Shown here one piece after another: positions 3,596 to 10,769 of a stretch of DNA of 20,901 nt. A program made the translations under genes and the position numbers. The notes under the pieces were generated by a model, which was not told where the DNA came from, did no database searches, and was given only the letters and a program-made list of their open reading frames with translations. Numbering within the stretch: position 1 is the stretch's first letter; each line of letters begins with the position of its first letter. The stretch covers positions 1 to 20,901 of IMG/VR virus record IMGVR_UViG_3300006865_000376; one strand, 5' to 3'. The stretch comes from a virus.

Positions 3596-6500
3596 TCAGT
3601 TGATCTCCGGGCCGGCGCGTGTGCCGGGGACCGTGATGGTGCAGAAGCTCACGCCGTCGATCGCGGCGCCCGGCTGGCCGCCGGTGCCGCCTGGCGTAGG
3701 AAATTTGCCGCTCTCTCCGGGCTGACCATTCTGTCCGGCCTGCCCTGGACCGCCACCATTGCCGCCGGCGGTATACGCGCCGCTAGGATGACCACTTCCG
3801 CCGCCCTGCCCCCCCTGTCCGCCCGCGTTTGCGGTGCCTGCAGAGCCGGGCAGGCCCGGTACGACAACCGCGCCGGCGACAGTGCCTGACCCGCCTGCTC
3901 CGCCCGTGCCGGGATTGGTTCCAGCACCACCACCGCCACCGCCGCCAGCGTGACTGTATAAGCCTTGATCGAAGTCGGCCCCGCCACCACCGCCACCACC
4001 GCCACCGCCATAAATGGTGCCAGCGTTCTCGAGCGTGATGGGGTGGCGCGTGTAGAGCGCCTTGCCGCCGACGCCGCCGTTGCCGCCCCTATTGGGATAG
4101 AGCCCGCCCGCACCACCGTTGCCGCCCCTGCCCTGGATGCGGCCGTTGTTGCGGATGGTGATCGGCATGCCCGTAGGCCAGCTGCCGACATCGAACGCGC
4201 GCACGGTCGTGCTGGTCGCGCCGACGGTGACTCCGCTGTTGATGATGCACAGCACCTCGACTCCGGCGGCGACGTCCTGGGCAGTTGGCGCCGGGAACAG
4301 CGAGTCGTGCGCGGTGCGCAGGTTGAAGTTGTTGGTGCCCGTGCCGATGACGATCGTGCGGGTCGTCAGGAACGCGTCATCGAACGGCAGCCAGTTCGCC
4401 TCCTCGGCCTCGACCTGGTAGCGGTCCGAGGACGGGTTCAGGCGCACCACCTGGATCGGCAGATTGGCGCGCGCGCCGGTGGCGTCCTGGATGGTGGCAT
4501 GCTCGAGGCGGTAGCCGCCACCCAGCACGACGGCCTCCCGTCCCGGCCGGAACAAATCGAACCGGAACTTGCGCGGCGGCGTCGAGAACCGGCCGAGGAT
4601 GATGTCGTTGAGCCGCAGCGCGGTGCTGCGGCCGAGAGCGGGAATCCAGCGCGAGTAGATCTTGCGGATGGCCGCCGGCTGGTCGATGAAGGCCGCGTTG
4701 GGGTCCTGCGATATCGCGGTGGAGCGGTAGTTGGCGGGGTCGTCCCGCTTCTCGAGCGGGTTGATCTGGCCGAAGTAGGTCCACACCTGCGACACCCGGG
4801 TGTCGGGCTGCTCCGCCTTGTTGAACGTGCCCTCCATCCACGTCCGCTCGTCGAACAGCCGGGCATCCGTCGTGATCTGCCGCAGCACCTGCAGCCGGAT
4901 GGTCTGCGCGGCATCGTCCCAGCCGAGCGCCAGGCCGGCCTGCTCTATGACCTCGGACACGAGCTGGTTGACCGAGGTCGGCTCGGCGATCACCGCCGTG
5001 TAGAGGCGCTGCAGATAGGTGTCGACCTCCTGATCCCAGTCGTGGATCGGGATGAACGCCTCGTCGACGCCGGCGAAGTCGACCAGGAGGTCGCGGATGA
5101 TCTGCGAGGGCTTCTCGGCGTTGAACTCCAGGCAGACCTGCACACGGTCCTCGGCCTGGTGGGCGATGGCCGTCGTGCCCTTCTGCGCGCGGGTCAGGGT
5201 GAGGGCATCGCCCGCGCGCGTGAAGGCGCAGATCTCGCGGCCGCCGATGGCGACGAGACCCGAGGCCGGATACTCGGCATTGCCGATGCCGGTGGGCGAC
5301 AGAGTGGCCGAGGTCGCCGCGGCCGTGATGTTGGCGGCCAGATAGCCGTTGCTCAGCACCGGGGCCTGGGCGCGGTCGCCGTCGGCGAGCTTGAGGACGT
5401 CCTTGGCGGTCAGCGTATAGGTGCCGTCGGCCGCGGCCTGGAAGCTCTCGACCACATAGTGGCGGACGTCCATGTCCCCCAGCGCCTGGCCGAGCAGCCC
5501 GCGAATGACCCGGATCGGCCGGCCCTGCAGGAAGGGATGCCGCGCCCGCCACTTGCCCCAGAACGTCCCCTGCTTGAACGGGTCGTAGGGCCGGTCGGCG
5601 AGGTACTTGTCGAAGCCAGGGCCGGTGTCGCTATGGGGCCGGTCGCGGAAGGTCACCGTGAGCGAGGAGCGCGTGCCGAGGTCCTTGCCGAGGCTCATGG
5701 TGCCGGCGTTGAGCTGGACGCCGGTGACGATCGGGATCGCCGGGATATCGGCAGGCAGATAGCCGGTGTCGATCGCGAAGCGGTAGGTCTGGGTCACCTC
5801 GTCGAAGTTGGCCAGGTCCTGGCAGGTGCCCAGCGAGTTGAAGCACTTGATCGGGCCGGTGGTGAAGAGCGAGGGGTCGAGCGCGCCCTGCTCGGTGAAC
5901 CCGCCACCTGTGCCCTTGTTCTCGATCCAGCCCGGCAGGGCGCCGGCCAGGAACACCTCAGGCGCCGAGCCGGTCGGGGTGGCGCCGTTGGCGCCGAGGT
6001 CGACAGGACGGCCGGCGGCATCGATGAACAGGCGGCGGTTGCCTGTGACCGACAGGTCGAGATAGGTGCCCGGGTTGAACCACAGGTCGGCAAGATCGGC
6101 GTCGAGCTTGTTGCCCCCGCCGGGGTCGGCGCCGACCGCCCAGTCCGCCAGCGTGAGGTCGATGTTGGCGTTGGTGTAGGTCGTCACGGTCGCGAGATCC
6201 GAGAGGTCGTCGCGATAGAGCCACCGCTTGGCGGTGTCGGCGAGGTCGACCGAGCACAGGATGTGGGCCCAGCGCCCGATCGTGAGCGCGCCGGACTCGA
6301 TGTCGAGCACGGTCGCGCCGGCGGCGTCGGCGGCGACGATGCGCACCTTGCCGACCGACCCAAGCGTGGCCCGGAAGCGGAGGGTCGCGCCGCCGACCGT
6401 GGTGGCGCCGCAGAAGATCTGCGCAGCGGAGCCGGGCAGCGCCTGTAGCCTGATCCAGAAGCTCAGCGTGAAGGTCTTGCCGTCGGCCGCGCCGGTGAGC

Positions 6501-6652
6501 CCGGCCCCGCGGGTGAGATAGTCCCCGATGCCGTCGAAGCGGACGGGCGCTGGCCGATAGCCGGCGTAATCGAGCACGGCCTGGCAGGGCAGGACGCCAT
6601 AGTCGAGGGCGCAGTAGGGGACGTCTACCTCGATGTAGACGAGGGCCTTCAT
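3596..6652 (-). CDS. Central tail (hub/tip) protein with inserted LamG-like domain and glycine-rich tip
   Basis: This is a 1018-aa protein. ATG at 6652 overlaps the previous stop by four bases. Residues 1-27 (DVPYCALDYGVLPCQ) and 265-300 (KCFNSLGTCQDLANF, then TQTYRF) look like two halves of one domain, with Cys at 14, 23, 270 and 277. Between them, residues 35-245 read as a LamG/concanavalin-like jelly roll (FDGIGDYLTR, FTLSFWIRLQ, RWAHILCSVD). Residues 300-760 are the hub part, with KDVLKLADG, LVSEVIEQAGLALGWDD and FRFDLFRPGREAVVLGGGY, comparable to lambda J-type central proteins. A connector (ITIRNNGRIQG) then leads into a glycine-rich C-terminus (841-1018). By gene order it forms the tail tip and probably contacts the host. 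The LamG call is from sequence pattern only. Confidence 0.82.
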   Translation of the reverse strand: MKALVYIEVDVPYCALDYGVLPCQAVLDYAGYRPAPVRFDGIGDYLTRGAGLTGAADGKTFTLSFWIRLQALPGSAAQIFCGATTVGGATLRFRATLGSVGKVRIVAADAAGATVLDIESGALTIGRWAHILCSVDLADTAKRWLYRDDLSDLATVTTYTNANIDLTLADWAVGADPGGGNKLDADLADLWFNPGTYLDLSVTGNRRLFIDAAGRPVDLGANGATPTGSAPEVFLAGALPGWIENKGTGGGFTEQGALDPSLFTTGPIKCFNSLGTCQDLANFDEVTQTYRFAIDTGYLPADIPAIPIVTGVQLNAGTMSLGKDLGTRSSLTVTFRDRPHSDTGPGFDKYLADRPYDPFKQGTFWGKWRARHPFLQGRPIRVIRGLLGQALGDMDVRHYVVESFQAAADGTYTLTAKDVLKLADGDRAQAPVLSNGYLAANITAAATSATLSPTGIGNAEYPASGLVAIGGREICAFTRAGDALTLTRAQKGTTAIAHQAEDRVQVCLEFNAEKPSQIIRDLLVDFAGVDEAFIPIHDWDQEVDTYLQRLYTAVIAEPTSVNQLVSEVIEQAGLALGWDDAAQTIRLQVLRQITTDARLFDERTWMEGTFNKAEQPDTRVSQVWTYFGQINPLEKRDDPANYRSTAISQDPNAAFIDQPAAIRKIYSRWIPALGRSTALRLNDIILGRFSTPPRKFRFDLFRPGREAVVLGGGYRLEHATIQDATGARANLPIQVVRLNPSSDRYQVEAEEANWLPFDDAFLTTRTIVIGTGTNNFNLRTAHDSLFPAPTAQDVAAGVEVLCIINSGVTVGATSTTVRAFDVGSWPTGMPITIRNNGRIQGRGGNGGAGGLYPNRGGNGGVGGKALYTRHPITLENAGTIYGGGGGGGGGGADFDQGLYSHAGGGGGGGAGTNPGTGGAGGSGTVAGAVVVPGLPGSAGTANAGGQGGQGGGSGHPSGAYTAGGNGGGPGQAGQNGQPGESGKFPTPGGTGGQPGAAIDGVSFCTITVPGTRAGPEIN
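3599..4132 (-). repeat. Glycine-rich coding tract (polyglycine adhesin-like tip)
   Basis: This tract codes for residues 841-1018 of the central tail protein. It contains a run of ten Gly near residues 882-891, a run of seven near 903-909, and many GG-x-GG steps broken by short loops (LYPNR, ADFDQGLYSH, GTNPGT). The layout resembles the polyglycine-II sandwich of T-even gp38-type tail adhesins, in which the Gly stretches form a rigid lattice and the loops between them bind receptor. Function is inferred from that resemblance. Confidence 0.65.
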
Positions 6653-7455
6653 GCGACGCCCCGCAGGTCGAAGTCGATCGCCATCATGCCGTTGGGGCGA
6701 TCATTGGTCGGCCGCGGCACGCCCCCCGGGAACCAGCCGAAGCCGGTCTCGTAGGGGTAGGTGCCGGGGCGCCAGGCCCAGAAGAAGGGGCTCTCGGCGC
6801 CGGCCGCCACGAACGGGTCCATGTGCTGGCGGTACCAGGCCGGGTCGAGGTTCTTGAGGGAGACCGAGGTGCTGCGGGTCTCGCCGACGACGATGCGGCC
6901 GAGGAAGTTGCCGCTTTCGCTGACGCCGTTGATGACGGTGACCTCGCGCCCGTAGGGCATGGGCGTATGACCGACGTAGATGCGCCTCGGGATCACCAGC
7001 AGCCGGCCGACGTAGAGCACGGCTGCTTCGGGCGGCGCGCTGCCCTCCTGCATGCGCACGCGCACGCCCGCGAGCGACTGCGGCTCCCAGCGGAAGATCA
7101 CCGGCTTGTCGTCGGCGAGCAGCGTCTCGCCGACGAGCTCCGACCAGCCGCTCCCGTCGTCGCCCTCGATGCTTACCGGGATCTGCGCCGAGCCGAGGTT
7201 GTGCCTGGCGATGCCGACGTAGTCGACGGGATCGGAGTCGGCGATGGCGACGGTCAGGTACTCGTCGCCGGAGGGATCGGCCACCCACAAGAGGTCGGTG
7301 GCGGGATTGGCGAGGTTGGTGGCCGGGAAGCCCTCGGCCTGTGTGGTCGCGGTGATGTTCGCCGTGGTGACGAGGTTGCGGTAGCCGATCACGGGATTGT
7401 TGACGTTCGGGTCGGCGCCGAGCTGCGCGACCAGCGACGGCGACAGGATGATCAT
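6649..7455 (-). CDS. Distal tail protein, unnamed family
   Basis: This is a 268-aa protein. ATG at 7455 has AGGA about ten bases upstream, inside the second copy of the 30-bp repeat. The gene overlaps the central tail gene by four bases. It starts MIILSPSLVAQLGADP. The middle has a discoidin-like beta-sandwich look (NLANPATDLLWVAD, DYVGIARHNLGSAQIP, SLAGVRVRM), and the C-terminal third has GREVTVINGVSESGNFLGR, SLKNLDPAWYRQHMDPFV and SPFFWAWRPGTYP. The C-terminal part reads like a distal-tail or hub-adaptor element that connects the tail tube end to the central tail protein. Its position directly before the 1018-aa protein agrees with that. I do not recognise a named family with certainty. Confidence 0.78.
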   Translation of the reverse strand: MIILSPSLVAQLGADPNVNNPVIGYRNLVTTANITATTQAEGFPATNLANPATDLLWVADPSGDEYLTVAIADSDPVDYVGIARHNLGSAQIPVSIEGDDGSGWSELVGETLLADDKPVIFRWEPQSLAGVRVRMQEGSAPPEAAVLYVGRLLVIPRRIYVGHTPMPYGREVTVINGVSESGNFLGRIVVGETRSTSVSLKNLDPAWYRQHMDPFVAAGAESPFFWAWRPGTYPYETGFGWFPGGVPRPTNDRPNGMMAIDFDLRGVA

Positions 7456-7461
7456 GCCGGC

Positions 7462-7491
7462 TGCGTCCTGGTCGAGATCAGCACGTGGCCG
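7462..7491 (-). repeat. 30-bp direct repeat, copy B (remnant of tape-measure 3' end)
   Basis: These 30 bases are identical to 8442-8471. On the minus strand they can be read as GGHVLISTRTQPA followed by TGA, which nearly matches the true tape-measure C-terminus (DGHVLISTRTQGP). The upstream residues VR also match. The TGA overlaps the ATG of the distal tail gene at 7455 (ATGA), and the AGGA inside the repeat is that gene's likely ribosome site. The 72 bases between 7456 and 7527 hold no gene apart from this remnant. Confidence 0.9.
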
Positions 7492-7527
7492 CCACGGACG
7501 CGGCGCGATGCCGCCGCCGGCTGCGCG

Positions 7528-8138
7528 TCAGACCTGCGCTTGCTCCTCGCCGAACATCGCATCGTAGAGTTCCCCCGCCTGCTCCTCGTCGAACGCGGTC
7601 CGGCCCTTGCCGAAGATGCGGGCCTGGCGGTTGGCGTCCATCCACCACCAGAACTCGGCTGGGGTCAGGCGCCAGAAGGCCTCGGGCGTGAGCCAGCGGC
7701 CGCGGGCGACGATGGCCGCGTAGCCTGCGGCGACGATGCCCATCCGCCGGCCTGCGCCTCGTGGAGGGCGGCCGCGGCCAGCGGGTCCGCCGGCCCCCTC
7801 GCAAAAGGGCCCTCGCCTCCCTTGCGCTGCGCCCTCTCCGCGGCGTTCGGGGGCACCATCAGCGCGAGCAGGCCGGAGGCCGCGGCGAGCACGTCGGCGC
7901 CGGGGTCCTCGAACATGCCGATGTAGACCTCCTCGTCTGTGACTTTGGCGCCGGCGTAGCGCAGCACCGCGCCGTAGGCCCTGGCGATGCGCGTCAGGGG
8001 CGGCGCGCTCTGCTGCATCGCCCGGGCCAGCTCGGCGAGCGTGATGACCTCCTCGGCCGAGGCAATGGCGCCGAGCATCCGGTTTGCGGGGATCTGGTAG
8101 GTCGTGCCCCGCCAGCGCAGCTCGTAAGGTTCGAACAT
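7528..8138 (-). CDS. Tail assembly chaperone GT-type fusion made by -1 frameshift (join 8138..7804, 7806..7528)
   Basis: This is the predicted 203-aa frameshift product. Residues 1-112 are shared with the shorter chaperone. The ribosome then slips back one base on the heptamer at 7809-7803 and reads 91 more residues in the -1 frame (next codon TGC, giving FCEGAGG). That frame ends in a conserved-looking domain: GIVAAGYAAIVARGRWLTPE, TPAEFWWWMDANRQ and DAMFGEEQAQV. In long-tailed phages the G and GT products keep the tape measure protein soluble and recruit tail tube subunits; they are not part of the virion. The -1 phase, the canonical heptamer and the stem-loop support a real frameshift. The T part could instead start by itself at ATG 7743 (71 aa), but no good ribosome site precedes it. 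A gene of this type normally lies before the tape measure gene; here it lies after it. Confidence 0.75.
7665..8138 (-). CDS. Tail assembly chaperone G-type (unshifted product)
   Basis: This is a 157-aa protein from ATG at 8138 (MFEPYELRWRGTTYQIPANR). An in-frame TTG at 8144 directly follows the previous stop (TGATTG) and has AAGAGG six bases upstream, so the start could be there and would add two residues. The body is a helical domain (IASAEEVITLAELARAMQQS, RIARAYGAVLRYAG, VTDEEVYIGMFEDPG). It then runs through the slippery site into a low-complexity Ala/Pro/Ser/Arg tail of 45 residues that looks like a dispensable read-on of the unshifted frame. Its role is inferred to be like lambda G: the abundant partner in tail assembly, with the GT form as the minor product. 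Family identity rests on the frameshift arrangement more than on direct recognition of the sequence. Confidence 0.72.
   Translation of the reverse strand: MFEPYELRWRGTTYQIPANRMLGAIASAEEVITLAELARAMQQSAPPLTRIARAYGAVLRYAGAKVTDEEVYIGMFEDPGADVLAAASGLLALMVPPNAAERAQRKGGEGPFARGPADPLAAAALHEAQAGGWASSPQATRPSSPAAAGSRPRPSGA
7764..7800 (-). promoter_or_regulatory. Stem-loop downstream of the slippery site
   Basis: Two bases after the heptamer the minus strand can fold GAGGG, GGCC and GCGG with CCGC, GGCC and CCCTC. That gives 13 pairs with one bulged G on each side and a 9-base loop. If the outer five pairs are unwound by the ribosome, the inner stem starts seven bases after the heptamer, which is the usual spacing for a frameshift stimulator. 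The fold was done by eye in a GC-rich context. Confidence 0.55.
7803..7809 (-). promoter_or_regulatory. -1 ribosomal frameshift slippery heptamer
   Basis: The minus strand reads C CCT TTT in the frame of the 8138 start, an exact X XXY YYZ heptamer in phase. After slippage both tRNAs re-pair (CCC, TTT). The new frame is the one that continues open to 7528. Confidence 0.85.
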
Positions 8139-8144
8139 CTGCAA

Positions 8145-8435
8145 TCAATGCCTCTTGTTGTTGCCCTCAACAGCCGCAGCGAACGCGAGCAGCCGATCGC
8201 CGGCGCGCTCGATTGCGGCGTCGAGCGCCGGCATCGCCGCCTCAAGAGCTGGCCTCTCGTGTGGCTGGCAGGCGCCGAGGCGTTCCAGCTGCAACCGGCG
8301 GCGCACGATCAGTCGCTCGAGCACCACAACCACCTTGGCGCGCCCGGCCAATACCGGGTCGTGCCGCGCTACCGGACAGCCCAGGTAGGCGCGACAGACA
8401 GCAGCTATGGCGGCGAGCGCGCGCCCCCCGGTCAT
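8145..8435 (-). CDS. Hypothetical protein between tape measure and tail chaperone genes
   Basis: This is a 96-aa protein. ATG at 8435 overlaps the tape-measure stop (ATGA). Its TGA at 8147-8145 is followed at once by the possible TTG start of the chaperone. The sequence is mainly helical and rich in Ala, Leu and Arg: MTGGRALAAIAAVCRAYLGC, KVVVVLERLIVRRRLQLERL, then an acidic/Ala helix (ALEAAMPALDAAIERAGDRL) and a polar end (EGNNKRH). It has three Cys (14, 20 and one further on) with no clear metal site. I do not recognise it. It lies inside the unit bounded by the 30-bp direct repeats together with the chaperone pair. A tail-assembly role is possible but is only inferred from its neighbours. 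Confidence 0.6.
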   Translation of the reverse strand: MTGGRALAAIAAVCRAYLGCPVARHDPVLAGRAKVVVVLERLIVRRRLQLERLGACQPHERPALEAAMPALDAAIERAGDRLLAFAAAVEGNNKRH

Positions 8436-10309
8436 GGCCCTTGCGTCCTGGTCGAGATCAGCACGTGGCCGTCCCTGACGGCAGCGTTGATCGCGCCCAG
8501 CAGATCGATCACCGCCGACCCGCGATAGAGGTGGCTCGGGTCGATCCCGCTGACGATGAGCTCGCGTTGGGTGCGCTGCGGCGATGCCGAGCCGTCGGCG
8601 GCCGCTCCGGACCCGCCGCTGGTCGCCGCCGGCATCGCCGCCCCGCCGCCGCCTTCCAGCGTCGTGCTCCTGATCTGCGCGATCTGTGCGACGCCCGCCG
8701 CGGCGATCAGCCCGGCCTGGATCCAATTCAGGGGATAGAAGAGAGAGGGGTCGGAGAATGCCCGGGTGACTCCGACCGCTGTGTTGAGCAGCGCCGCGGC
8801 GATCGCCGCGCCCTTGTTCTTCTGGAACGCTGTCGTCAGCGTCGACGCCAGCACCGATGCCGTCGACAGCATGGCGTCGCGGTTCTGCTTTTCGATGTCG
8901 TTTACTGTCTTCCCGTAGGTGCGGAACGAGATCACGCCGTCGTCGAGAGCGGCCCGGGCCACTGCCATCCTTTCCTGCATCGACATGTTCGCGCGCGACA
9001 TCGCGGCCTCGAACTCGTCGAGCCTGAACTGGCGCTGAATGTTGAGGGCGTCGCTGGCGACCTGGCGATATTGCTCCCAGCTGATCTTGCCCGCATCGAG
9101 GGCTGCCTTGATCGTCTGCATCGTCGGCTCGGCCATGTTCGCGTAGGCGAGCTGATCCTTCATGAGCAGGTCTTGGATGTTGCGGAGATCGGTGAGGCTC
9201 TGGATCAGGGGGCTGGCCATCACCGCGCTCTCGAGGAGCTTGCGGCCGAACTCGTCCTGGGCGCGCTTGACCTGTTCGGCCGTCGCCATCGCCTTCATCT
9301 CGGTCTTGCCGAGCTCACCCTGCAGCAGCTGCAGCGGCTTGAGATCGCCAACCGGATCGGCCCAGCGCGACACCCGCATCTGCTCGGCGATATCGAGCCA
9401 CTTCTCGCGCGCCTTCTCCGCCTCCTCCCAATTGCCTCGCAGCTGCTTGGTCACGATCTCGATCGTCGCGGCAACGGCGGCGCCAATCCGCGCGAGGTCG
9501 TTCATGCGGTCGCCAAGAAACCGAACGACGCTTTCCGACTTGGCGCCTTCCTCCGCCATCCCCTTGAGCCCGCCGGCGAGGAGGTTGAGGGACGGCAAGA
9601 TCTCACCGGAAACCCGCGTCGCCAGTCCCTGGCCGGCGGCGCCGATCGCGCGCAGTGCATCGTTGAAGCGCTCCGCTTCGGCGGCCGTCTTGGTGGACAC
9701 CGTGCGCCCGAGACGGTCGGCCTCCTCGCCAAGGGCCTGCAAACCTGCGGCGCCTTGGTTGAGCAGAGGAATCGACTTCGCGCCTTCCCGGCCGAGCAGC
9801 GCCAGCGCAATAGCTGTCTTGTTTGCACCGTTCTCGGACGCCGCGAACTTGTCGGCGATCTCATTGAAGATCGTGGCTATGTCGCGAGCCTTGCCGCTGG
9901 CGTCGAACGCACTGATGCCGAGCGCCGCGAAGGCACGCGCGGCGTCGGAGGTCGGGGTCTTGGACTCCTGGATCGCGCGCACCAGGTGGACGAGCGACTT
10001 GCCCAGCGTCTCGGCCGAGCCGCCCGAGAGCTCGGCCGCGTAGGTGAGCCGAGAGAGTTGCTCGACCGAGATGCCGCTCTCCTGAGCCAGCTTGCCCAGC
10101 GCGTCTGCCTGCTCGATGGCCTGCCGCGTCAGGGCGCCGAACGCTGCCGCAACCACACCGGCTGCGGCGCCGACCGGCGCGAAGCGGCTGGCAAAGGCGC
10201 CGACGCTATTGGCGAGCCTCGCCAGCCGTTTGTCGACCGCCTGCAGGCCGTCGTGAAACTCCGCTAGGTTCGCAGCCAGGCGGATATATAGAGCACCGAT
10301 CTCGGGCAC
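8432..10309 (-). CDS. Tail tape measure protein
   Basis: This is a 625-aa protein with a GTG start at 10309 and AGGAG nine bases upstream. It has the layout of a siphovirus tape measure: a helical N-terminus (MPEIGALYIRLAANLAEFHD) and a hydrophobic stretch at 46-60, followed by long helices typical of this family (QADALGKLAQESGISVEQLS, LGREGAKSIPLLNQGAAGL). The C-terminal hydrophobic part at 499-545 (AAIAAALLNTAVGVTRAFSD, NWIQAGLIAAAGVAQIAQIR) is characteristic, and a Gly/Ala/Ser linker leads to the C-terminus. Tape measure proteins fill the tail tube and set its length. At about 0.15 nm per residue this one would give a tail of roughly 90-95 nm. It follows the major tail gene by 46 bases with no chaperone genes between, which is unusual. 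Its last codons are duplicated near 7470. Confidence 0.9.
   Translation of the reverse strand: MPEIGALYIRLAANLAEFHDGLQAVDKRLARLANSVGAFASRFAPVGAAAGVVAAAFGALTRQAIEQADALGKLAQESGISVEQLSRLTYAAELSGGSAETLGKSLVHLVRAIQESKTPTSDAARAFAALGISAFDASGKARDIATIFNEIADKFAASENGANKTAIALALLGREGAKSIPLLNQGAAGLQALGEEADRLGRTVSTKTAAEAERFNDALRAIGAAGQGLATRVSGEILPSLNLLAGGLKGMAEEGAKSESVVRFLGDRMNDLARIGAAVAATIEIVTKQLRGNWEEAEKAREKWLDIAEQMRVSRWADPVGDLKPLQLLQGELGKTEMKAMATAEQVKRAQDEFGRKLLESAVMASPLIQSLTDLRNIQDLLMKDQLAYANMAEPTMQTIKAALDAGKISWEQYRQVASDALNIQRQFRLDEFEAAMSRANMSMQERMAVARAALDDGVISFRTYGKTVNDIEKQNRDAMLSTASVLASTLTTAFQKNKGAAIAAALLNTAVGVTRAFSDPSLFYPLNWIQAGLIAAAGVAQIAQIRSTTLEGGGGAAMPAATSGGSGAAADGSASPQRTQRELIVSGIDPSHLYRGSAVIDLLGAINAAVRDGHVLISTRTQGP
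8442..8471 (-). repeat. 30-bp direct repeat, copy A (3' end of tape measure gene)
   Basis: This copy is identical to 7462-7491 and codes for GHVLISTRTQ at the tape-measure C-terminus. AGGA inside it, with a further AGGG after it, is the likely ribosome site for the 96-aa gene. Each copy therefore ends in a stop/start overlap and drives the gene that follows. Confidence 0.9.
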
Positions 10310-10355
10310 CTGCGCGGCTCCTGGCTAAGCGGACAGCGTCATCCCGAACCGCAGC

Positions 10356-10769
10356 TCACGGTCCCGGCGTGTAGCTGACAGGGCCGTCGGACTGCAGCGA
10401 CAGGCTGAACGTCACCTTGTCGTTGTAGGTGGCCCCTTCCTCGTAGCTTGCGATCACGAAGGTGCCGGCGACCTTGGAGCCGTCCTTCGTGTTGCGGAAC
10501 TCGAAGTCCTTGATCACGTCGCGGTCGAAGACCCACCGCTTGATCTTGTCCGAGCGCAGGATGCCGGAGATCGACAGGTCGACCTGCTGCATCGCCGGCG
10601 TGTCGAGCAGCCGGCGCCAGCCGTCGTCCTCGTCGGCCGTCACGTCGATCGGCTCCGTCCCGAACGTGAACGACTTCTCCTGACATCCGGCAACCTCCTC
10701 GAGGGTGCCGCCGACGTCGCCGGCGTAGACGCGGATCAGGCGCCCGACGGTGCCATGCTGTGCTGCCAT
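10356..10769 (-). CDS. Major tail (tube) protein
   Basis: This is a 137-aa protein. ATG at 10769 has GAGGAG eight bases upstream, a strong ribosome site that fits a highly expressed structural gene. The sequence fits a TP901-1-like tail tube subunit: GRLIRVYAGDVGGTLEEVAG, KSFTFGTEPIDVTADEDDGW, a helix-like segment, then VDLSISGIL, FRNTKDGSKVAGTFVIASYE and a beta-rich end (VTFSLSLQSDGPVSYTPGP). These subunits stack as hexamer rings around the tape measure to form the tube. It lies between the tail terminator and the tape measure, as expected. No frameshifted C-terminal extension is evident. The 46 bases between this gene and the tape measure hold only that gene's ribosome site. Confidence 0.85.
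   Translation of the reverse strand: MAAQHGTVGRLIRVYAGDVGGTLEEVAGCQEKSFTFGTEPIDVTADEDDGWRRLLDTPAMQQVDLSISGILRSDKIKRWVFDRDVIKDFEFRNTKDGSKVAGTFVIASYEEGATYNDKVTFSLSLQSDGPVSYTPGP

Follow-up and report, generated by a model that had tools for sequence, protein, structure and literature searches.

The tail genes of the virus studied here stand in a new arrangement of a known, strongly conserved module. The window, which is the whole stretch of DNA that was analysed (a 20,901-base IMG/VR record of an uncultured virus), encodes the head-tail block of a siphophage on the minus strand. In this block, the chaperone genes are located downstream of the tape measure gene (TMP), and not upstream of it, after the major tail gene, which is their canonical place in other siphophages (PMC3706429, PMC2147016). 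The features of the block, in the order of transcription, are the following.

10356..10769, minus strand: major tail protein gene (PF06199 Phage_tail_2, 1.2e-21; phrog_1407, 3e-24)
10310..10355, minus strand: interval of 46 bp between the major tail gene and TMP, the chaperone site in relatives, with AGGAG 8 nt upstream of the TMP GTG
8432..10309, minus strand: tape measure gene (TMP), 625 aa (phrog_8462 tape measure, 1.7e-42; PF10145, 1.6e-8)
8442..8471, minus strand: inner copy (R1) of a 30-bp repeat, in the TMP 3' coding end
8145..8435, minus strand: orf96, 96 aa, function not assigned, with an ATG overlapping the TMP stop
7665..8138, minus strand: tail chaperone G, GTA-gp10-like (about 50% identity to the G of relatives, which match PF11836 Phage_TAC_11)
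7803..7812, minus strand: candidate -1 frameshift site GGGCCCTTTT, with in-frame CCCTTTT, positioned as in relatives
7528..7743, minus strand: T-like chaperone extension (TAC ORF), in the -1 frame relative to G (PF09550 Phage_TAC_6, 1.4e-5)
7453..7494, minus strand: TMP 3' stub (GGHVLISTRTQPA-stop), which contains the outer copy (R2, 7462-7491) of the repeat and overlaps the P268 ATG
6649..7455, minus strand: distal tail gene P268 (phrog_11633, 8e-40), directly after TMP in relatives
3596..6652, minus strand: fibre gene

Our gene calls agree with the preliminary description of this DNA, according to which only 46 bases separate the major tail gene from TMP, and the chaperone pair and a 96-aa ORF come after TMP. 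The TMP matches several PHROG tape measure families. The G ORF spans 8144-7665, and the ATG at 8138 is its likely start. All genes of the rearranged block are intact, and the joints coincide with gene borders.

The chaperone unit, i.e., orf96 and the overlapping chaperone pair, is flanked by an exact 30-bp direct repeat (7462-7491 and 8442-8471, 980 bp from start to start), as had been noted before. No other repeat in the window is as long, and chance is ruled out as its origin by the 50 order-3 Markov shuffles, where repeats reached at most 19 bp. The inner copy is the genuine TMP 3' end, which finishes in DGHVLISTRTQGP and a stop. The outer copy translates into RGGHVLISTRTQPA followed by a stop that shares 4 nt with the ATG of P268, in line with the earlier remark that it reads to its stop and overlaps the next gene as a true TMP end would. 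Identity breaks off abruptly at each end of the 30 bp, short of the two stop codons. On the 3' side, the TMP continues with GP-stop into orf96 and the stub with PA-stop into P268; on the 5' side, the TMP continues into its own body and the stub into the 36 bp that lie downstream of the chaperone stop. These 36 bp have a weak likeness to the TMP linker (p about 0.06) and no clear TMP homology.

Several observations identify the stub as a piece of tape measure gene. When the window was scanned in six frames with the 31-aa TMP tail, only the outer copy, apart from TMP itself, rose above background (score 60, the next being 36). The stub peptide has an ISTR/STR-type ending, as in the TMPs of five relatives (L079, L085, L112, L115, and L133), and the C-terminus of the window's TMP can be aligned to the TMP ends of two of them (L085 and L079). 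Among 130 distinct TMP ends, that of the window is alone in being repeated within 5 kb: its repeat has 30 bp and the next longest 15 bp, which is the level expected by chance. The lack of a duplicate in the relatives rules out that the repeat is a common feature of the family, and the exact 30-mer has no other occurrence in the viral contigs searched.

To put this arrangement in context, we gathered relatives through P268, TMP, and G, added the annotated phages P12026, PHS3, GJ44, and 1N2-2, ran profiles made from the window and its relatives on every locus, and removed duplicates before counting. Apart from the window, 80 distinct loci have both genes, and G lies upstream of TMP in 79 of them; only the window and one further locus, L199, have TMP before G. 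In the relatives, the chaperones stand between the major tail gene and TMP, the distal tail gene comes after TMP, and the repeat is lacking. In 95 of 112 loci, no more than 100 nt separate the TMP stop from the start of P268, which bears out the earlier proposal that the ancestral TMP ran directly into the distal tail gene, and the two genes overlap by 4 nt, as ATGA, in 53 of 93. Since relatives have G before TMP, and TMP running straight into P268, the order in the window is derived and the outer copy represents the former TMP/P268 junction. Judged from sequence comparison, the window carries a derived rearrangement of a strongly conserved tail block, in which the relocation of the chaperones is supported, and the outer repeat is the former TMP end, still standing where it ancestrally did. 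The identity of 30 out of 30 positions suggests that the event was recent, and we consider the rearrangement to be probably so.

The searches for closer relatives gave a consistent picture. There is no duplication intermediate among the 80 loci, and no close relative in an intermediate or unrearranged state was found, the nearest P268 being 57% identical. Single-protein searches with TMP retrieved no close relative either, and those with the capsid protein gave best identities of 41-50%; a capsid match, L102, was discarded because its tail is unrelated. No relatives were found at the DNA level among phages. In the literature, within a limited coverage, we did not find chaperones reported after TMP.

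The second locus with TMP before G deserves a separate description. It belongs to the same element as L206, a whole IMG/VR contig (3300017658_000112, 16627 b) that sits inside a split radC and carries genes for an integrase, an HTH protein, a portal, a capsid, TerS, and TerL. Its only tail genes are the tape measure gene and the chaperone pair, in the order TMP-G-TAC. This gene content suggests a phage satellite that forms capsids and has its own tape measure and chaperones.

The chaperone pair of the window looks like an ordinary G/GT type in terms of sequence. In the window, as in each of the 80 distinct loci, the second chaperone ORF lies in the -1 frame, and an in-frame slippery heptamer is present in 77 of the 80, most commonly GGGAAAC, versus 23% expected from codon shuffles. 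The GTA-gp10-like (TAC_11) and TAC_6 ORFs of this phage group appear to form a -1 frameshift pair in which the heptamer is conserved; three loci (L042, L045, and L059) keep the overlap in the -1 frame and lack a standard slippery heptamer. The heptamer of the window, CCCTTTT, is found 30-33 nt past the G domain (median of 24 in relatives), and one would be expected by chance with a frequency of 60% when the window is taken alone. G itself has no Pfam match. The TAC ORF scores 25.8 bits with PF09550 Phage_TAC_6, above the gathering cut-off (23.4), and 25.1 bits (1.5e-5) with TIGR02216 (rcc01693 family), below the curated cut-off (56.1). The C-terminus of TAC is complete, the only sequence cut back being that of TMP, and the start signal of TMP is intact (AGGAG). 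We found no sign of a loss of function, and infer that the chaperone system is functional. Some relatives have additional genes between TAC and TMP, named by eye: one for a second tail-completion-like protein (L030 and L079), or a DUF2190-like gene (L067, L077, and L082) that is elsewhere located between the major tail protein gene and G. These extra genes between chaperones and TMP indicate that the block is open to insertion there too.

The status of orf96 is less clear. No homologues were found in viral contigs, phages, or plasmids, and its GC content at the three codon positions (0.79/0.53/0.78) departs from that of the other genes (about 0.65/0.48/0.92). An orphan with such atypical composition may not be a gene, and it is possible that orf96 is not a real one. 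The preliminary description had proposed that each copy of the repeat keeps a ribosome site for the gene that follows. This fits P268, which has an AGGA inside the repeat, 10 nt before the ATG, even if the predicted pairing is weaker (-4.0) than the median of relatives (-5.8). It does not fit orf96, whose best site is outside the repeat.

How could this arrangement have arisen? The simplest single account, and the one we regard as probable, is a tandem duplication of the chaperones and TMP, or a replication template switch within the block, followed by reciprocal losses that left the stub. Starting from an ancestor with the order major tail, G/GT chaperones, TMP, P268, this event would have placed a copy of TMP directly after the major tail gene, with a chaperone unit now behind it. 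The first copy of the chaperones and the body of the second TMP would then have been lost, so that the TMP formerly preceding P268 would persist only as its last 40 bp or so. The 30-bp repeat would be the stretch of TMP shared by the two sites, with a 3' edge corresponding to the joint of the duplication or switch and a 5' edge corresponding to the joint of the deletion. A duplication joint on one side and a deletion joint on the other would leave such different, abrupt edges. The stub retains the Shine-Dalgarno-like AGGA before P268, suggesting that the loss stopped short there. Expressed from the same operon, the chaperones would remain able to act in trans, with G and the -1 frameshifted GT binding TMP during polymerisation of the tube.

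The path that we infer, which we hold to be likely overall, predicts both sharp repeat edges and intact genes. One remnant of a lost copy is at the expected place, namely the TMP 3' stub directly before P268. The lost chaperone copy has no clear remnant in the 46-bp interval: the end of the interval aligns weakly with the 3' end of the TAC gene, with a p of about 0.01 that is post hoc and a control region that scores nearly as well. The lack of a known source for orf96 counts against an origin by duplication and loss.

The same final map, with repeat copies flanking the unit exactly, would result if the chaperone unit, cut out or copied from where it stood before, had been inserted in the TMP 3' end, with duplication of a 30-bp target. 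This had been put forward in the preliminary description, of which the relocation stands, given the ancestral order in relatives, and the insertion with duplication of the junction is not established, because the product is no different after duplication with reciprocal loss, or after template switching, neither of which needs a staggered 30-bp target duplication. Such a target duplication would be unusual, the unit has no integrase, transposase, or homing endonuclease (nor does orf96 match one), and a separate clean deletion would be required at the old site; we regard insertion as unlikely. A foreign origin of TMP, or the replacement of the old genes by a ready-made TMP-G-TAC cassette from a phage or satellite that left the old TMP end behind, seems to us more doubtful still. 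The order TMP-G-TAC does exist in L199/L206, and the similarity ranking of the window's TMP is unrelated to those of P268 and the major tail protein (8th, 1st percentile; 74 references), but TMPs are mosaic in general. The stub is identical to the present TMP end at 30 of 30 positions, yet TMPs of the family have only 27-38% protein identity, and the identical ends are unexplained unless the swap came first. A broader conjecture, which we also rate as improbable, is that TMP and chaperones are mobile as a TMP-first cassette, in the order of L206, and that this phage acquired or created one, with the stub as its scar.

The record is a single contig from an uncultured virus, which raises the question of a metagenomic misassembly or chimera. 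Re-joining the sequence differently at the 30-bp repeat fails to restore the usual order, which makes an artefact very unlikely: three joints would have to be assumed, including one that has no repeat, and every joint respects gene borders and start signals. Finally, the two copies have start codons downstream and AGGA within, as one might expect if the repeat were no scar but an element kept in both places for its function, as a translation signal or a recombination boundary. It is duplicated in no relative, is absent from other viral contigs, and is the coding end of TMP, so we give this reading almost no credit.

The placement of chaperones before the tape measure gene is among the firmest rules of gene order in long-tailed phages, and it serves to annotate chaperones that are otherwise unrecognisable. 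That an exception bearing a molecular scar looks intact suggests that tail assembly does not strictly depend on this order, and this window offers a way to test order versus dosage. It also implies that chaperones can be overlooked where genes are annotated only by their position. Duplication and loss would provide a path for reordering a conserved phage block. Tandem duplication followed by random loss is known from mitochondrial gene order, and the likeness lies in the duplication of adjacent genes, their complementary loss, and the remnant left; a literature search found no case in phage tail genes.

Compared with known chaperone systems, the window resembles the lambda-type G/GT in that its two chaperone frames overlap, with the second in -1, and lie next to TMP; in the family, an in-frame heptamer is seen in 77/80 loci. 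It differs in that the chaperones follow TMP and in the heptamer, which is CCCTTTT/GGGCCCT instead of GGGAAAC. The pair matches, directly or via relatives, the families of the GTA-like pair (PF11836 Phage_TAC_11, and PF09550 Phage_TAC_6/TIGR02216, the rcc01693 family), from which it is distinguished by its location after TMP and by a TIGR02216 score under the cut-off. Marinomonas phage P12026, Oceanospirillum phage GJ44, Pseudoalteromonas phage PHS3, and Idiomarinaceae phage 1N2-2 have a homologous distal gene and the same set of tail genes, but, unlike the window, they all have the order major tail, chaperones, TMP, and distal gene.
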